A stretch of DNA of 64,000 nucleotides from Bacteroidota bacterium. Its GTDB lineage: Bacteria; Bacteroidota; Ignavibacteria; SZUA-365. Shown in pieces: positions 47,287 to 55,344 of the stretch. Positions within the stretch are counted from its first letter, which is position 1. Each line of letters opens with the position of its first letter. The stretch is taken from NCBI GenBank assembly GCA_003246455.1, contig QKAF01000130.1, forward strand, positions 56,641 to 120,640. Direction: 5' to 3'. Position numbers and translations under genes: made by a program. Under the pieces are notes generated by a model. That model did not search any database. It was not told where the DNA came from and saw nothing but the letters and a program-made list of their open reading frames with translations.

Positions 47287-47320
47287 AAAGAGGCTGTCCC
47301 TTCGGACAGCCTCTTTTTTT
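47287..47320. terminator. bidirectional intrinsic terminator (htpG / VWA operon)
   Basis: aaagaggctgtcc-cttc-ggacagcctctttttttt. Confidence 0.9.
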
Positions 47321-47342: not shown

Positions 47343-48557
47343 TTAGCGAACGATCATTGTTCTTGTTGCCGTCACGCTCCCGCTGCTAAGACGATAGATA
47401 TACATGCCGGGTGCGAATCCCCGGGCGTTGAATCGAACGACATGGCTGCCGGGCAGAATGTCTGCATCGACCAGCTTCGCCATGCGTCGGCCGAGGAGGT
47501 CGAAAACCTCCAGACGGACCGGCTGCGGACTGTCGATTCCGCTGAGCGAGTAGGAAATGACCGTTTCGCCGGAAGGCGAAAAGGGATTCGGAACATTCTG
47601 CGCAAGTTCCAGTGCGAACGGCGCGGCCTGATCCGGGCGGGCGATGCCCGTGGTCGTCACGGCTGCTTCATGCCAGTTTGCAGCCGCGGTTTCGCCGCAC
47701 GCCACGACCGAGATCTGAAGCTCATGCATCGCGGCATCCGGATCCGGAGATTTGAATGCCACCGTGTGTTCCTCGAAGCCATGTCCCATGAAGGTCGCGA
47801 TCTGCGTGAAGACGGTTTGCAGATCGTTTGCGTTCGGAGTCTGGAAGTAGCTTCCACCGGTCAGCAGTGCGATGAGTTGGAGATCCGCCGCATTGACAGC
47901 GCTGCCGAGACCGATGGTGAACACGCGGAGATTGTAGAGCTGCGCGAGCGCAATGATCTGCGTGGGCGTATGGACACTGCTGTTGTCTCCGCCGTCCGTG
48001 AGCACCACCACTGCCTTCTTCTGGTTCGATCCGTTGGTCTGCAGTTCCGTGAGTCCTTCCCAGATGCCGTCCCAGACAGCCGTGGCTCCGGAGGCGGGAA
48101 GCTGCTGCACGGCGGCGTCCAGCGCTGTCAGACTCGATGTCATGCTCTGCTGCAATGTTACGGACTGTGTGAACCAGAAGATTGCCCCTTCGTCCGTCAC
48201 GCTGTCCATCAGCTGAATGAACGCGCTTCCTGCGATCTTGGCGGCTGCATTGGCGGATCCACTCATACTGCCGCTGGCGTCAAACACGAGCACAGCGGAA
48301 ATCGGATTGTGCACCATCGGAGAGGAGCTCTCGATGATACTGAAGTCATTGACCGGCTGGCCGTTGTCCGTGACCGCCAGCTGACTGCGCGTCAGGTTGA
48401 ACTGCGTTTCACCGTCGCAGCGAATCGAAACGGTAAACAGTCCGTTCGGATTCCCTTTCACGACGTGCATCGTGGTGATGCGCGCCGCGGTCTGTGCGAA
48501 CAGGGAAGTTGAGATCAGCACGAAAAGCAATGCTGCGATGGTCGAAAAGTGTTTCAT
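47343..48557 (-). CDS. secreted von Willebrand A-domain protein with T9SS C-terminal domain
   Basis: MIDAS VFDASGSMSGS; VVVLTDGGDNSS; C-terminal AQNVPNPFSPSGETVISYSLSG...LEVFDLLGRRMAKLVD...GMYIYRLSSGSVTATRTMIVR; start MKHFST at 48557. Confidence 0.88.
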   Translation of the reverse strand: MKHFSTIAALLFVLISTSLFAQTAARITTMHVVKGNPNGLFTVSIRCDGETQFNLTRSQLAVTDNGQPVNDFSIIESSSPMVHNPISAVLVFDASGSMSGSANAAAKIAGSAFIQLMDSVTDEGAIFWFTQSVTLQQSMTSSLTALDAAVQQLPASGATAVWDGIWEGLTELQTNGSNQKKAVVVLTDGGDNSSVHTPTQIIALAQLYNLRVFTIGLGSAVNAADLQLIALLTGGSYFQTPNANDLQTVFTQIATFMGHGFEEHTVAFKSPDPDAAMHELQISVVACGETAAANWHEAAVTTTGIARPDQAAPFALELAQNVPNPFSPSGETVISYSLSGIDSPQPVRLEVFDLLGRRMAKLVDADILPGSHVVRFNARGFAPGMYIYRLSSGSVTATRTMIVR

Positions 48558-48601
48558 ACCTACCTCCGAATGGGTTCCAATGGGCATGTCGACCTGCCTG
48601 G

Positions 48602-49345
48602 CTATGGTGTTTTCAGTTTGTGCACGATATCCCGGCAGATGTCGTCGATCTGCGAAAGGAACGGCTGTGAATAATGCTGCCCCCCTGTGGACTGCGCGAT
48701 ATTGCGCAGCACCACTTCCTGGCTGGTGAGTCTGAGTGCTATGGAATATACAGGAATGTTTTCGCCTTGTCCAAGCGTGGTGATCTTGCTCGGGGTTCCG
48801 AGCGTGCTCGAATTATCGTCGCTGTCGGTGATGATGATGACCGCCCGGCGGGCGTGTGTCGCCTTCGACTGCAGTTCGAGCATCCCCTTGTAGATGCCGT
48901 CCCACATCGCGGTCGCGCCATCGATCGGAATGGCGTCGACGGCGGCGCGCAGCAGCGAGACCTGCGAAGTGATGTGCTGCGCGATCGTGGCTGTCTGCGT
49001 GAAGAAGACGACGACGCCTTCGTCCTTCGCGCCATCGAGGGAATCAAGCGCCGCGTTGCATCCGTCGCGGAACGCCTGCGCAGTCTGCGGGGTGATGCTG
49101 CCGCTCGCATCCACGACGAGCGCGACGGAGAAATGGACCTGCTGAGCGGTGGAATCTCCACCGGAGGTATCGGGCGGGAGGATGATGGAAATCGGAGTTC
49201 CGATGTTGTCCGCGAGGGGGATGGAAATCCTGTCGACAAAGCGATTGCGCGGCGTCTGCACGTCGAGCGGGGAGTCGCAGGCACTGTAGAATAGTGTGAA
49301 CAGCGCCGCGGCGGCAAGAAGGACCGGAATACGTAGAACGCGCAT
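48602..49345 (-). CDS. von Willebrand A-domain lipoprotein (paralogue of downstream gene)
   Basis: Lipobox ALFTLFYSACDS; MIDAS VVDASGSITPQ; AVIIITDSDDNSS. Confidence 0.88.
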   Translation of the reverse strand: MRVLRIPVLLAAAALFTLFYSACDSPLDVQTPRNRFVDRISIPLADNIGTPISIILPPDTSGGDSTAQQVHFSVALVVDASGSITPQTAQAFRDGCNAALDSLDGAKDEGVVVFFTQTATIAQHITSQVSLLRAAVDAIPIDGATAMWDGIYKGMLELQSKATHARRAVIIITDSDDNSSTLGTPSKITTLGQGENIPVYSIALRLTSQEVVLRNIAQSTGGQHYSQPFLSQIDDICRDIVHKLKTP

Positions 49346-49348
49346 GTA

Positions 49349-50509
49349 TCAGAACTCGTACGAGACGCCGTAGGTCATACCCACCTTGTTTGTGCTGAAC
49401 CAGTTATTCTGGAAGCGATACATCAGCACGCTGCCTTCGGCGCCAACGACCACCGCGATGCGGTCGAACGGCCGGAACTTGAGGCCCAGCGTGGCGCGGG
49501 CGAGCGGACCGAGATCGAAGGCGCCGCCGGCCTGGAGCTGGGCAAATGGGTGGACGTGCGGGAGCAGGGCATCACCTGTAAACTGGTATACCGCCGTCGC
49601 CCAGTATGCCAGGGGATTCTGCTCATACCGCACGCGCATCCCAAGTTCTGTTCCGAAGAAGTGCTGAGAAAAGGCTTCCCTCCCCCCCTCGATGCCGATG
49701 GCGTGGTTGTCGCCCAGGGCGTACAGCACGCCGACATTCATATTGGAAAACCAGGGATCAGACTGCGAGACCACCGTCGGCGACGGGTCTGATCTCATGG
49801 ATACGTTCCGAGCATAAAACGTCACACCGTCCGGACGCGGAATCAGGTCGTAGAAGCGGACCTGTTCGTTCCGCACCCGACCGGGCTGCTCCGGCGCGGC
49901 GACCGCGGCGGCGAGGAGTTCAAGGTCGCGCGGGGTGACGTCGCGGACTTCGACGGCCGGCGGAAGGAGGGCGGAAGGATTTTCCCTCATGGCCGGTGTG
50001 ACGGCGGACCTTGCAGGTGACGCCGGAGGAATCGCAAGATCGGAGATCGGGGCGGGCTCTTCGATCACGACCGTTTCGCCCGGGGTGCTCACCACGCGTT
50101 CGACGATCGACCCGACTGCATCGAAGGGCAGCGGGAACTGGAAGTAGAGCAGCACCGCCGCGACAGTTGCCAGGATGGCCGATGTCGTGCTGAACCACAT
50201 GTGACGAAGCGCCGAAGCACCGGCCGCATGCGCGGTCGCATTATTCGCCGACGCGGCGTTTACCGTGGCAGAGGGGATCGTGAAGCCGAGAGATGCAAAA
50301 ATGGCCGCGGTGGCGGACGCCGGGGGCGTGAACGCCTCGATGTCATGCTGCACCGCCTTCCGAATGGCGATGTGATCCTGCATTTCGGCACGAAGCTCCG
50401 CGTTCGAAGACAGCTTCTGGAAGAGCACTTCTTCATGGGTGCCGCCCAGTTCGCCGTCCATGAACGCATGCAGCATTCGTGAATCCATATATTCGTTGGG
50501 ATTGCTCAT
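49349..50509 (-). CDS. anti-sigma-factor-like protein with TM helix and C-terminal beta-barrel-like domain
   Basis: N-term DSRMLHAFMDGELGGTHEEVLFQKLSSNAELRAEMQDHIAIRKAV (anti-sigma-like, no Cys); TM HMWFSTTSAILATVAAVLLYFQF; C-terminal amphipathic strands ending VGMTYGVSYEF. Confidence 0.75.
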   Translation of the reverse strand: MSNPNEYMDSRMLHAFMDGELGGTHEEVLFQKLSSNAELRAEMQDHIAIRKAVQHDIEAFTPPASATAAIFASLGFTIPSATVNAASANNATAHAAGASALRHMWFSTTSAILATVAAVLLYFQFPLPFDAVGSIVERVVSTPGETVVIEEPAPISDLAIPPASPARSAVTPAMRENPSALLPPAVEVRDVTPRDLELLAAAVAAPEQPGRVRNEQVRFYDLIPRPDGVTFYARNVSMRSDPSPTVVSQSDPWFSNMNVGVLYALGDNHAIGIEGGREAFSQHFFGTELGMRVRYEQNPLAYWATAVYQFTGDALLPHVHPFAQLQAGGAFDLGPLARATLGLKFRPFDRIAVVVGAEGSVLMYRFQNNWFSTNKVGMTYGVSYEF

Positions 50510-50539
50510 CGTCGTCTATCCTGACTTGTCTCTTTCCTT

Positions 50540-51103
50540 CTATCCACTGAATTCTGTCATATACGGGGCCAAAATGTCGCGAATCTTCTGTTTCGCCCTG
50601 AAAATGCGCACTTTCACATTCGAGAGGGACGCACCGACAATTTCAGCGATTTCCGCATAACTGAGTCCTTCATATTCCCGCAGAACAAAAACCTCGCGAT
50701 AGTCATCCGGCAGCATGTCGAGCGCCGTCGTGATAAGCTGCAGGAATTCCGTCTTTTCTGTCGTGGAAGGCTGCACGAGGGACTGATAATCCTCGAATTC
50801 CACGGTCTGCTTTCTGTTCCTTCTCTGGTTGAGGCAGAGATTCCGGGCGATTTTCAGCAGATAGCCCGGCACATTGGTCATCTCACGATCTTTCTGGGCG
50901 CTTTCGTAAAAACGAATGAACGTCTCCTGATACACATCCTGCGCTTCGTCGCGCTGACCGAGAAATCGAAGGCAGTACGCAAACACGCGACCTCCGTATC
51001 GAGCATAGAGCTCGGTGAAGGCTGCTTCCGCTTTCTCCTTTTCACCTGACAGGCGGTAAAACAGTTCAGCGTCCGGGGTGTTGTCTGTCTTGTTTCCGGA
51101 CAT
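50540..51103 (-). CDS. ECF RNA polymerase sigma-70 factor
   Basis: GRVFAYCLRFLGQRDEAQDVYQETFIRFYES (sigma2); LPDDYREVFVLREYEGLSYAEIAEIVGASLSNVKVRIFRAKQKIR (sigma4). Confidence 0.95.
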   Translation of the reverse strand: MSGNKTDNTPDAELFYRLSGEKEKAEAAFTELYARYGGRVFAYCLRFLGQRDEAQDVYQETFIRFYESAQKDREMTNVPGYLLKIARNLCLNQRRNRKQTVEFEDYQSLVQPSTTEKTEFLQLITTALDMLPDDYREVFVLREYEGLSYAEIAEIVGASLSNVKVRIFRAKQKIRDILAPYMTEFSG

Positions 51104-51223
51104 TGCGACGGCGTAGAAAGGTTCGGGGTATCAGTTATTCATTCGTTACATATACGTGATACAGCGTACAATGTTAGTAACACCCCAATATAGGGAAGGT
51201 TACAGGAAAGTGACAGATCAGGC

Positions 51224-51384
51224 AGGAAGCAGGAGGCAGGAAGCAGGAAGCAGGAGGCAGGAAGCAGGAAGCAGGAGGCAGGAGGCAGGAAGCAGGAGGC
51301 AGGAAGCAGGAGGCAGGAAGCAGGAGGCAGGAGGCAGGAAGCAGGAGGCAGGAGGCAGGAAGCAGGAGGCAGGAAGCAGGAAGC
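51224..51384. repeat. heptanucleotide tandem array (aggaRgc)x23
   Basis: 161 bp of uninterrupted 7-bp units alternating aggaagc and aggaggc. Confidence 0.97.
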
Positions 51385-51389
51385 AGGAA

Positions 51390-51509: not shown

Positions 51510-53198
51510 ATGTCTCGATTGCGTGTCGTTTTACCGGCCCTCGTGCTCGCGGGTCTGCTCATTTCCTGCGGAACATCGGAGAAAGATCGCATGACCGAAG
51601 AATTCAAAGCTTTTCTGACCAAGTATGAGAGCACGGTTATTCCCCAAAACAGGGAAGCCGCACTGGCATATTTCAATGCAACGATCTCGGGTGACGAAGC
51701 GGACTATACCCGCGCGGCTGATCTCGAAGTGGAACTGACGAAGGTGTTCGCCAATAAGGAAGATTTCCAGACGCTCAAGCGCATCAGGGATGCGAAGGCC
51801 ATCAGCGACCCGCAGCTGCGCCGGCAGCTGGACGTCATTTACCTCTCCTACCTCGAGCGGCAGATCGACGAGAGCAGACTCGAGGAAATGATCCGTCTGC
51901 AGAACGAAAACGAAAAGAAGTTTTCGACGTTCCGCGCGGAGGTGAACGGGAAGAAGCTCACGGACAACGAAATCGAGGAAATTCTGCGCAATTCCACGAA
52001 CAGCGCGGAACTCGAAGCCGCGTGGACTGCGAGCAAGGAAATCGGGAAGGTGGCGGCGCCGGACGTTCTGCGCCTGGTGCGCATGCGCAATACGGCAGCC
52101 CGCGAACTCGGTTTCAAGAATTATCACGCGATGCAGCTCGAACTCAGCGAACAGGATCCGGAAGAGATCGCGACGCTGTTCGACGAGCTCGACGAACTCA
52201 CCGCCGGCGCATTCGCTCAGCTCAAGGCGGACATGGATGTCAAGCTTGCGAAGCGCTGCAACGTGACGGTGGAAGAACTGATGCCGTGGCATTATCAGAA
52301 CCGCTTTTTCCAGGAAGCGCCGAAAATCTACGACGTCGATCTCGATGTCTTCTACAAGGACAAGGATATCGTCGAGCTGGCAAAGCAGTATTACGCGGGA
52401 CTCAACCTTCCGATCGAGGACCTGGTCGAAAAGAGCGATCTCTACGAGAAGGAAGGCAAGTATCAGCATGCCTACTGCACGGACATCGACCGCGAAGGCG
52501 ACGTGCGTGTGATCTGCAACATCAAGCCCTCGTACAACTGGATGAATACGACGCTGCACGAATACGGGCATGCGGTGTATGACAAGTTCAACGACCGCAG
52601 TGTGCCGTGGTCGCTGCGCGAACCGGCCCATACGTTCACGACCGAGGCCATCGCGATGTTGTTCGGTCGCCTGGCCAGCAATCCCACATGGCTTGAGCAG
52701 GTTGCCGGGGTTCCCGCCGACCAGGTCGAAAAAGTGGCGGACGTGATGTTCCAGTCTCTGCGTCTCGAACAGCTGGTGTTCAGCCGCTGGGCACAGGTCA
52801 TGTACCGCTTCGAAAAGGCGATGTACGAGAATCCCGATCAGGATCTCAACGCCCTCTGGTGGCAGCTGGTGGAAAAATACCAGATGATCAAGAAGCCGGA
52901 TGGACGCGACAATCCCGACTGGGCATCGAAGATCCACGTGGCACTGTACCCGGCCTATTATCACAATTACCTGATGGGCGAACTTCTTGCATCCCAGCTG
53001 CATGCGCACATCTGCGGCAAGATCCTCAACAGCGAGAATCCCCGCAGGGAAGCGTATGTCGGACGTACGGAAGTCGGGACATTCCTGATCGACAACGTGT
53101 TCAAGCCCGGCCGCACGCTTCTGTGGAACGACATGATCGAAAACGCCACCGGCGAGAAACTCACCGCGAAATACTATGCGGCGCAGTTCGTGAACTGA
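51510..53198 (+). CDS. M2 (ACE-like) family metallopeptidase, lipoprotein
   Basis: HExxH in NWMNTTLHEYGHAVYDKF; FTTEAIAMLFGRLA; lipobox LAGLLISCGT. Confidence 0.85.
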   Translation: MSRLRVVLPALVLAGLLISCGTSEKDRMTEEFKAFLTKYESTVIPQNREAALAYFNATISGDEADYTRAADLEVELTKVFANKEDFQTLKRIRDAKAISDPQLRRQLDVIYLSYLERQIDESRLEEMIRLQNENEKKFSTFRAEVNGKKLTDNEIEEILRNSTNSAELEAAWTASKEIGKVAAPDVLRLVRMRNTAARELGFKNYHAMQLELSEQDPEEIATLFDELDELTAGAFAQLKADMDVKLAKRCNVTVEELMPWHYQNRFFQEAPKIYDVDLDVFYKDKDIVELAKQYYAGLNLPIEDLVEKSDLYEKEGKYQHAYCTDIDREGDVRVICNIKPSYNWMNTTLHEYGHAVYDKFNDRSVPWSLREPAHTFTTEAIAMLFGRLASNPTWLEQVAGVPADQVEKVADVMFQSLRLEQLVFSRWAQVMYRFEKAMYENPDQDLNALWWQLVEKYQMIKKPDGRDNPDWASKIHVALYPAYYHNYLMGELLASQLHAHICGKILNSENPRREAYVGRTEVGTFLIDNVFKPGRTLLWNDMIENATGEKLTAKYYAAQFVN

Positions 53199-53286
53199 CA
53201 GCGAAATTTTCAGGTCCTATTCTCCGGAGAACACGTTTCTTCCGGAAACAGCTGCAGGGCGGATTCTCGAATCCGCCCTGCGTGCG

Positions 53287-55104
53287 TCAAGGGGTGACAA
53301 CCAGCTTTCCGTGAAGTACTGCGCGGGAGGTGGAGAGGCGGTAGACATACACGCCTGCCGGCAAGGGGGAATCGAGGATGGCCGCATGCCGTCCTTTTTC
53401 CATGAAGCCCGAGACCGGAACGGCGACTTCGCGTCCCATCATGTCGTGGATCGACAGACGGACGTCCATCGCTCCCTGCAGCGCATATGAAAACGTGGTC
53501 CGGTCGCGGGAGGGATTCGGCCAGGCCGGGAAGAGACGCACAGCATCATCCGCCACCGGCGGAATCTCCGCGGAGGTACTTCCGGTCTGCACGTACAGGG
53601 AAATACGGGAGGGATCGCTTCCGCCGGAAATGAAGGTGTCCAGTGAAGGGACGGGCGGACCGATCACGACATTGCCGAAGTTGTTCGCCTGGTCGGGAAC
53701 GAGCGCGGCTCCGCCGTTCAGCAGCGCCTCGATCACATGCCCCGCTTTCACTGTGTGCAGCACGGATGTCAGGGTAAATTCCACGGTGACGTCGCTGTTC
53801 GTCTCCGATGCCTGGCGATGGCCGCGGCAGATGGGGATGCGCGTTCCTGATACCGGATCCCGGTCGTAAAGAAGGAGATTCATCTGGTACGGGGTTCCCG
53901 TTGCGCGCACGAGCAGCCGGGCGCTGCCCGGAGGAGGCAGAATGCGGACGTCGGACAGCAGGGGTGCGGTACGGAAAGACAACGGTGTCGAACCCAGAAT
54001 ATTGATGTACGTGATCAGGTGTTCGGCCCGTGCGGGAGGCGGCTGGAAGCCGAGTCCGCCGGCACCGAAATAGAGGTCGAGCTGCGACATGCCGTCCGGA
54101 AGGGGAGAGGAAGGCAGCAGCCATCGGGATGTCGCGTCCGCGGCGTAGGACTGCGCCGCCCGGGTGCCTCCGTCGAAGAAAATCACGGCGCTGTCGGGCG
54201 AGGCCACCGGCGCAGCGGAGGCGTCTTCCTTCAGCCAGTAGGCCAGCCAGCGGTCGATGACGTCGAGGACGTACCCGTTCTGATCCGGCGAGGGGGGCAT
54301 GGAATGCCCACCCGGATACAGGACGATGCGTTTCGCCGCCGGTATCGCCTCGAATTGCCGCAGCGCTGCATTCTGATTGAAAAATCCGTCGTGATAACTG
54401 ATGAAAATTGCGGTCGGGGTGGTCACCGAAGATTCGCGCGCATTCGTCGCATTGTCCCGCAGGAACGGTCGAAGGGCGGAGTAATCGCCGCTCTCGCGCG
54501 CGTACTTGAGGAGCGAGGCGACCGCCGGATCGAAACGAACATCCGTCGTCGTGGTAGCGGCGGCAAACGTCCAGTTCATCGCGTCGTTCTCGAGCCAGTT
54601 CTCCTCCGCGCGTCCGTTCGCGATGATGGAAACCACGCAGCGCACCCCCATGTCGTAAGCGGCGGCATTCCATGCATGGAGTCCGCCCTGCGATCCGCCC
54701 TGCACCGCGATGCGTGCCGGGTTTACTCCGGGGAGCTGTTTCGTGAACGCGATGTTTTCGCGAAGGTCATCCAGAATCCGGGGTGCGGCGAAGAACGTAA
54801 ACAGTCCTTCCGAGCTGCCCTGTCCCCGAACGCTGTATGCCGCCGCGGCAAATCCCCTGCGGGCATAGTTGACGGCCAGCGCCCGGTTGTTGTTTTTTGA
54901 TCCACCGAAACCATGAACCAGCAGAATGGCGGGATATCCCTCCGGGGGTCGAGGGGTCGTCGGGAGGACATAGAGTGCGTCGAGCCTGACGCCGTCACTC
55001 ATCACGAGTGTCGTGTCGACCGCGACCTGAGCCCGTCCCGGCATCGCCATGAGCAGCACGGCGGCGAGGATTGCGGGTGCGGTTCGAAGAGATTGCATTT
55101 TCAT
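53287..55104 (-). CDS. CocE/NonD or S15-like alpha/beta hydrolase with T9SS C-terminal domain
   Basis: LLVHGFGGSKNNNRALAVNYARRGFAAAAYSVRGQGSSEG; GGSQGGLHAWNAAAYD; C-terminal FPAWPNPSRDRTTFSYALQ...SIHDMMGREVA...KLVVTP; start MKMQS at 55104. Confidence 0.85.
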   Translation of the reverse strand: MKMQSLRTAPAILAAVLLMAMPGRAQVAVDTTLVMSDGVRLDALYVLPTTPRPPEGYPAILLVHGFGGSKNNNRALAVNYARRGFAAAAYSVRGQGSSEGLFTFFAAPRILDDLRENIAFTKQLPGVNPARIAVQGGSQGGLHAWNAAAYDMGVRCVVSIIANGRAEENWLENDAMNWTFAAATTTTDVRFDPAVASLLKYARESGDYSALRPFLRDNATNARESSVTTPTAIFISYHDGFFNQNAALRQFEAIPAAKRIVLYPGGHSMPPSPDQNGYVLDVIDRWLAYWLKEDASAAPVASPDSAVIFFDGGTRAAQSYAADATSRWLLPSSPLPDGMSQLDLYFGAGGLGFQPPPARAEHLITYINILGSTPLSFRTAPLLSDVRILPPPGSARLLVRATGTPYQMNLLLYDRDPVSGTRIPICRGHRQASETNSDVTVEFTLTSVLHTVKAGHVIEALLNGGAALVPDQANNFGNVVIGPPVPSLDTFISGGSDPSRISLYVQTGSTSAEIPPVADDAVRLFPAWPNPSRDRTTFSYALQGAMDVRLSIHDMMGREVAVPVSGFMEKGRHAAILDSPLPAGVYVYRLSTSRAVLHGKLVVTP

Positions 55105-55344
55105 CGGCAAATGAATTTGATCACGGGAATCGTCAGCGAAAAAATACATCACCGGGGCGTATTCCAGAAATGGCGTTCTTGCGGTGCTGCCGATCCCGAA
55201 TCCATTCCTTCCTCGCGCACGCGTCGCATCGGCATTCGTGACGTTTTCCAGTCTACGGCGATACCCTGTTTTTCCGTATCTTGAACGATGCACGCCTGCC
55301 GCGGCTGCATTGTCATTCTTGCGCACCAATGGAGGCCAGAAATC

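Follow-up and report, generated by a model that had tools for sequence, protein, structure and literature searches.

A candidate trans-envelope ECF sigma factor system linked to VWA-domain and T9SS-tailed proteins in a family of Ignavibacteria

Within a 64,000-nucleotide stretch of an Ignavibacteria genome from the Bacteroidota (hereafter the window), four closely packed genes on the minus strand (47343-51103) encode an extracytoplasmic function (ECF) sigma factor, an anti-sigma-like protein with a predicted outer-membrane barrel, a lipoprotein with a VWA domain, and a secreted VWA protein with a sorting tail for the type IX secretion system (T9SS). The route from the state of the outer membrane or cell surface to transcription is poorly understood in Bacteroidota, as is the regulation of T9SS cargo genes, and the locus raises the question of whether these genes form a single envelope signalling unit and, if so, what that unit controls. 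Bringing together in silico the gene order, a barrel fold prediction, a lipoprotein motif, and a promoter with its recurrence before VWA and T9SS genes, we favour, with rather better than even confidence, an autoregulated switch that would span the envelope and govern a surface proteome of VWA proteins exported by T9SS. The operon, the promoter consensus and the predicted regulon make this proposal concrete and directly testable.

Four genes that stay together

The window belongs to a metagenome-type assembly (G000; 4.1 Mb in 165 contigs). A first-pass annotation, made from its sequence alone, had outlined the four open reading frames with gaps of 30, 3 and 44 nt; both the frames and the gaps were found again, and the assignments of the sigma factor, the two VWA domains and the T9SS tail were borne out by Pfam and NCBIfam matches above cut-off. 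The first gene (50540-51103; 187 aa; 59-96% identity among orthologues) encodes sigma-70 regions 2 (Sigma70_r2, 5e-15) and 4 (r4_2, 1e-20) without region 3 and adjoins an anti-sigma gene, as in ECF factors, with autoregulation suggested by the conserved promoter described below; the nearest NCBIfam model, sigma_PG0214, scored under its cut-off. Directly after it comes the anti-sigma-like gene (49349-50509; 386 aa), which has 7 orthologues at 47-79% identity.

The third and fourth genes both carry a VWA domain with the metal site DxSxS...T...D. In the lipoprotein (48602-49345; 247 aa; VWA 4e-10), a lipobox reading ...YSA/CDSPLD and the C-terminal VWA domain are kept in orthologues, in agreement with the lipidation first proposed, and the residues of the metal-ion-dependent adhesion site (MIDAS) are mostly retained. 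In the fourth protein (47343-48557; 404 aa), the VWA domain (47802-48293; 7e-14) has MIDAS residues D93, S95, S97, T159 and D188 that are unchanged across orthologues, the N-terminus resembles a signal peptide ending in SLFAQ, and the tail (47349-47591) scores 32.5 bits with the TIGR04183 model (cut-off 23), as in T9SS type-A cargo. Its start most likely lies at 48557, which GGAGG precedes, rather than at the longest-frame start, 48587.

The order sigma, anti-sigma, VWA lipoprotein, VWA/T9SS protein, which the first-pass annotation had singled out for checking in related genomes, is shared by 9 of the family's 12 genomes, the four genes being co-absent from the remaining 3. Searches by tblastn with the four proteins recovered the identical order in G001, G003, G005, G007, G008, G010 and G011 in addition to the window's own genome, and a strongly diverged copy of the module (25-48% identity) in G004; close copies of the lipoprotein, anti-sigma and sigma genes were not found in G002, G006 and G009, of which G002 and G009 are fragmented and may simply have an assembly gap.

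Synteny is often kept for the flanking htpG, peroxiredoxin and M2 peptidase genes as well, a pattern also expected if the four genes were adjacent by chance or synteny only and the sigma factor had no control over the VWA genes. The four genes, however, remain joined where the flanks shift: G005 has a 4 kb insert before htpG, and the M2 peptidase gene lies 6 kb off in G008 and is missing in G007. The diverged module in G004, a paralogous operon in the window's own genome (L079, contig C101:1-12000; sigma, barrel anti-sigma, lipoprotein beginning CSPPEE..., VWA protein with a T9SS tail, VWA protein), and a promoter shared with other VWA genes argue in the same direction, and together these observations largely refute a simple chance neighbourhood, which we regard as very improbable indeed. 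Because the order is conserved while the flanks change, a single conserved promoter precedes the sigma gene and the genes overlap or nearly overlap, the four probably constitute one co-transcribed envelope signalling unit, as the first-pass annotation had supposed. Operons related to the C101 paralogue are also found in G003, G005, G007, G008 and others. Outside the family, G012 has the sigma, anti-sigma and VWA lipoprotein genes followed by a peroxiredoxin gene, and G014 has the sigma/anti-sigma pair followed by a gene for a long secreted protein.

Predicted architecture of the anti-sigma protein

The anti-sigma protein appears to run from the cytoplasm across both membranes to the outer surface. 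Its N-terminus (approximately residues 8-75; 50285-50488) is modelled with low confidence as a helical, anti-sigma-like domain with a conserved MLHxFxDGEL motif and a weak RseA_N match that falls under the Pfam cut-off (E 0.0083); one homologue matches RseA_N at E 0.00019. This is followed by a single predicted inner-membrane helix (residues 96-124; 50138-50224), by a Pro/Ala-rich stretch (residues 125-228; 49826-50137) that is variable in the alignment and modelled as disordered (predicted local distance difference test score, pLDDT, <50, with one short helix only) and would form a periplasmic tether, and by a predicted C-terminal 8-stranded outer-membrane beta-barrel (49352-49825) that closes on a beta-signal, ...YEF. 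An AlphaFold 2 model of the full-length protein, built from 6 sequences, contains helices, the membrane helix, an unstructured stretch and strands, with a pLDDT of 37. When residues 216-386 were modelled alone, 8 membrane strands were obtained (pLDDT 63.7; predicted template modelling score 0.57), and Foldseek matched this model to outer-membrane barrels, the best including OmpA, Ail, OprF, OmpX, NspA and OmpW (TM approximately 0.4-0.5), in keeping with the barrel that the first-pass annotation had assigned to this protein.

Within the class, homologues of the protein are encoded in 67 of 197 genomes. Among 76 homologues, 68 have a hydrophobic segment that passes the threshold (exactly one such segment in 62), the estimated tether length ranges from 82 to 238 aa, and the C-terminal residue is Phe in 53 of the 76; most of the eight orthologous sequences end in Y-x-F. 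A profile search of the PDB with the anti-sigma protein returned no match.

This layout has precedents. Dma of B. thetaiotaomicron likewise combines an N-terminal anti-sigma domain, one transmembrane helix, a disordered tether and a C-terminal barrel (PMC13088901), and Reo of Bacteroides fragilis and Phocaeicola vulgatus is an anti-sigma factor predicted to reach from the cytoplasm to the outer membrane with a terminal barrel (PMC13114119, PMC9308784). As in the Dma systems, an ECF sigma gene here precedes an anti-sigma gene of the same domain layout with further gene(s) downstream; in Dma systems the operon is the one most induced on deletion of the anti-sigma gene, and the counterpart here is the conserved promoter before sigma. 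In contrast to Dma, the third gene here encodes a lipoprotein that carries a motif, with a gene for T9SS cargo frequently coming next, and the predicted regulon consists of VWA/T9SS proteins rather than the polysaccharide utilisation loci and NigD of the Dma and Reo systems.

For a comparison at the level of sequence, we used two proteins from other Bacteroidota genomes whose genes adjoin those for an ECF sigma factor and NigD. Both loci (L208:5922-8695 and L209:5990-8700) are EcfO-Reo-like pairs of ECF sigma and barrel anti-sigma genes with a divergent NigD lipoprotein gene. Aligning the 8 orthologues against these comparators with hhalign gave a probability of 2%, with the transmembrane helix alone aligned, for a template of 2 sequences whose Reo type is itself inferred; moreover, the comparator barrels match Pfam OMP_b-brl models, whereas the barrels of the window's family do not. 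EcfO-Reo and the system described here share an anti-sigma protein predicted to extend from cytoplasm to outer membrane with a terminal barrel, and a surface-protein regulon, which for Reo consists of surface lipoproteins (NigD) and here is predicted, but differ in sequence family and in the position of the lipoprotein gene, which follows within the operon here. Only 2 of the 297 genomes sampled gave a NigD_N match, and G000 gave none; a search for the Dma2 operon through DUF4943 gave as its sole match a gene outside any Dma operon. Because profile similarity does not extend beyond the membrane helix and the barrels lack an OMP_b-brl match, we do not file the protein as a Dma member, although it shares the Dma architecture; the two are apparently unrelated sequence families.

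Two other known arrangements bear comparison. In TonB-dependent cell-surface signalling of the FecA-FecR-FecI type, a surface signal is relayed from an outer-membrane barrel to an anti-sigma factor and on to an ECF sigma factor. The same order of relay is proposed here, but with a small barrel fused to the anti-sigma protein itself; TonB-type signalling was rejected, no TonB-dependent receptor gene being present among the four genes or those close by. In Porphyromonas gingivalis, the ECF factor SigP acts with the two-component system PorXY in the control of genes for the T9SS machinery, and PorA, a protein with a T9SS C-terminal domain, feeds signalling (PMC7712824). An ECF sigma factor is tied to T9SS in both cases, whereas the predicted targets here are T9SS cargo and the anti-sigma protein carries a barrel.

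A search of open-licence papers found nothing on an ECF sigma/VWA/T9SS system, nor on the promoter TGTAAC-N15-GTGTTA. The first-pass description of the system as a candidate undescribed one does not quite hold for the layout of a sigma factor with a barrel anti-sigma protein, which was already known from Dma and EcfO-Reo. What sets the present system apart is the apparently unrelated sequence family, the tagged and interchangeable lipoprotein, and a predicted VWA/T9SS regulon that has no earlier description in the papers searched.

A conserved promoter and its predicted regulon

When the 170 nt upstream of the sigma gene were aligned for 8 loci, TGTAACCTTC was invariant, with GTGTTA at a fixed spacing. 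In the window this corresponds to an ECF-type promoter on the minus strand (51178-51204; TGTAACCTTCCCTATATTGGGGTGTTA, of the form TGTAAC-N15-GTGTTA), a proposed autoregulatory sigma site that is unchanged in the 8 orthologous loci and was absent from the first-pass annotation. Across G000, G003, G005, G007 and G008 together, TGTAAC-N14/15-GTGTTA occurs at 32 sites, against 1 for a reversed-pattern control. Five of the 32 belong to the sigma operons themselves, and of the 27 others, 8 lie directly upstream of other VWA-family genes, where approximately 0.2 would be expected for 30 VWA genes among an assumed ~3500 genes (p ~6e-11). These eight are on C2 and C11 of G000, C182 and C188 of G003, C1 of G005, and at 514231, 4358212 and 5182050 of G007 (the last assigned by comparison with VWA gene coordinates); coordinate comparison added five more, on C144 and C318 of G002, C209 and C233 of G010, and C104 of G011. 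The window's genome holds approximately 30 VWA-domain genes in its 4.1 Mb, many for proteins of ~1000 aa, apparently a lineage-specific expansion.

Many of the remaining predicted targets are long secreted proteins, and TIGR04183 matches 10 of 16 predicted regulon proteins. One of the ten is a BNR-repeat protein, for which the site is equally placed in G008 and G011 and also, one base longer, in G005. In sampled genomes of other families of the class, and in G006, a family member without the operon, promoter sites were at or near the control level; when a position weight matrix was applied to VWA genes of distant families (L019-L032), no promoter found was convincing, which is what a family-specific VWA link would predict. 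Paralogous sigma operons carry other -10 elements, TGTAACC...GTGTCT in several of the serpin type and GGGAA...GTGTC at C101, and these differences argue for separate regulons.

Two further observations concern this promoter. Homologous lipoprotein genes lie directly behind TGTAAC-N15-GTGTTA in G008 (L266) and G005 (L267), and are likely conserved regulon members. In addition, 24 copies of a 7-bp repeat (GCAGGAA/GCAGGAG; 51222-51389) end ~18 bp upstream of the sigma gene's -35 element; no array of this kind is present in the stretch available from G003, of the same genus, and changes in copy number could alter expression.

The lipoprotein motif and the proposed switch

Across 77 loci with anti-sigma homologues, drawn from families of the same class, an automatic test identified the gene after the anti-sigma gene as encoding a lipoprotein in 68, and inspection by eye added 4; loci without a lipoprotein third gene are L076, L078, L105 and L126, together with L080, which is at a contig end. 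These lipoproteins fall into 14 groups by BLAST and differ in their C-terminal domains, which include VWA, serpin (Pfam E 8.5e-115), ASH/HYDIN-like Ig, DUF4397, TIG and unknown folds. The first-pass annotation had held that sigma/anti-sigma pairs in related genomes without VWA genes would count against the system: such pairs do occur elsewhere in the class, usually with a lipoprotein of another fold, while within the family the VWA link holds, and is stronger than proposed because the promoter recurs before other VWA genes. Six paralogous loci (L081, L084, L129, L132, L135 and L143) have a serpin or serpin-like lipoprotein as the third gene. The gene after the lipoprotein was read as encoding a secreted protein with a T9SS-like tail in roughly 30 loci, and TIGR04183 matched 15 of 17 fourth- or fifth-gene proteins in a hand-picked set.

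Despite their unrelated folds, many of the third-gene lipoproteins have a mature N-terminal motif in common, C-DSPLDVQTPR in the window (49247-49279) and CxSPLDxxxxR in consensus form. A motif CxSP[L/T/I/V][D/E/S/G/A] beginning at the lipidated Cys was found in 36 of 68 third genes and in none of 35 control lipoproteins encoded on the same contigs and in the same genomes (Fisher p 6e-9), while position +4 is Pro in 54 of the 68 third genes and in 1 of the 35 controls (Fisher p 7e-15), these p-values being optimistic since the loci and genomes are related and the counts not independent. Bacteroidota lipoprotein export signals are located immediately after the lipidated cysteine, the very position of this motif, which might then be a surface-export or sorting signal of the lineage's lipoproteins, unrelated to the barrel. 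Its absence from all 35 controls argues that it is no general export signal; a generic export tag was rejected on these grounds, and the reading as a whole seems to us quite improbable. The motif is more plausibly a docking peptide, most simply for the barrel.

In the switch that we favour, the N-terminal domain of the anti-sigma protein would hold the ECF sigma factor in the cytoplasm, while the rest of the protein would cross the inner membrane once, pass through the periplasm as a disordered tether and end in the 8-stranded barrel in the outer membrane. The lipoprotein would dock near the barrel, probably via its conserved N-terminal peptide, and display its VWA domain; the fourth protein would bring a further VWA domain out of the cell through T9SS. 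Altered conditions at the surface or outer membrane, in barrel occupancy or in the status of lipoprotein or cargo, may then release the sigma factor. It would transcribe the operon that encodes it and also act at the other TGTAAC-N15-GTGTTA sites, of which many precede genes for large T9SS-exported proteins, several other VWA paralogues among them, and the VWA-rich surface coat would thereby be adjusted. The VWA domains may, as the first-pass annotation proposed, bind ligands or regulate the barrel, and VWA proteins may feed back as ligands. Binding of sigma by the anti-sigma protein, the dual-membrane topology in vivo, the contact between lipoprotein and barrel, and the signal with its direction are what we infer here.

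Several observations weigh against this proposal. No family model matches the N-terminal domain above cut-off, confidence is poor for the full-length model and moderate at best for the barrel model, and the counts of promoter sites, like those of the motif, come from related loci and genomes, so that their p-values are optimistic too. For about one third of the promoter sites, no obvious gene for a secreted protein follows, and sites precede VWA genes in G002, yet the operon was not found in that fragmented assembly.

Its main rival holds that the barrel alone senses outer-membrane stress, with the lipoprotein and the T9SS/VWA proteins as outputs only, for instance a protective coat or adhesins. 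Such an arrangement would resemble EcfO-Reo of P. vulgatus, which induces NigD surface lipoproteins and for which outer-membrane stress sensing has been proposed (PMC13114119), and genes adjacent to dma2 in B. thetaiotaomicron, with no known sensing role, are induced when dma2 is deleted (PMC13088901), a further point against the switch; the regulon predicted here is likewise largely made up of surface proteins. However, the lipoprotein gene directly follows the anti-sigma gene in nearly all loci, and its N-terminal motif is kept although the domain behind it is swapped, which would be needless for a mere output. We consider this rival rather unlikely, though clearly less so than the export-signal reading.

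Beyond the VWA version, it is possible, and we suggest only tentatively, that these proteins represent a second, sequence-unrelated and perhaps convergent class of trans-envelope anti-sigma factor, widespread in one class of Bacteroidota and acting within a three-part sensor of sigma factor, barrel anti-sigma protein and lipoprotein. An interchangeable surface domain (VWA, serpin, Ig-like or others) would be plugged into the barrel by the conserved lipopeptide tag, each paralogue reading its own promoter for its own T9SS-exported set, with the version here serving a VWA coat. The trans-envelope architecture, as predicted here, is not limited to the Dma/Reo sequence family, and the modular tag suggests a general plug-in design for sensors.

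As for the surroundings of the operon, the first-pass annotation had closed it with a strong terminator at 47287-47320. The hairpin (47287-47316) lies between the operon and the convergent htpG, with a strong T run on the plus strand only and just TTT facing the operon; because of that plus-strand run it appears to serve chiefly as the htpG terminator, and a dedicated operon terminator was rejected. On the other side (51510-55227), the divergent neighbours encode an M2/M3-type peptidase lipoprotein and an S15-type hydrolase with a T9SS tail, and are syntenic in several genomes of the family.

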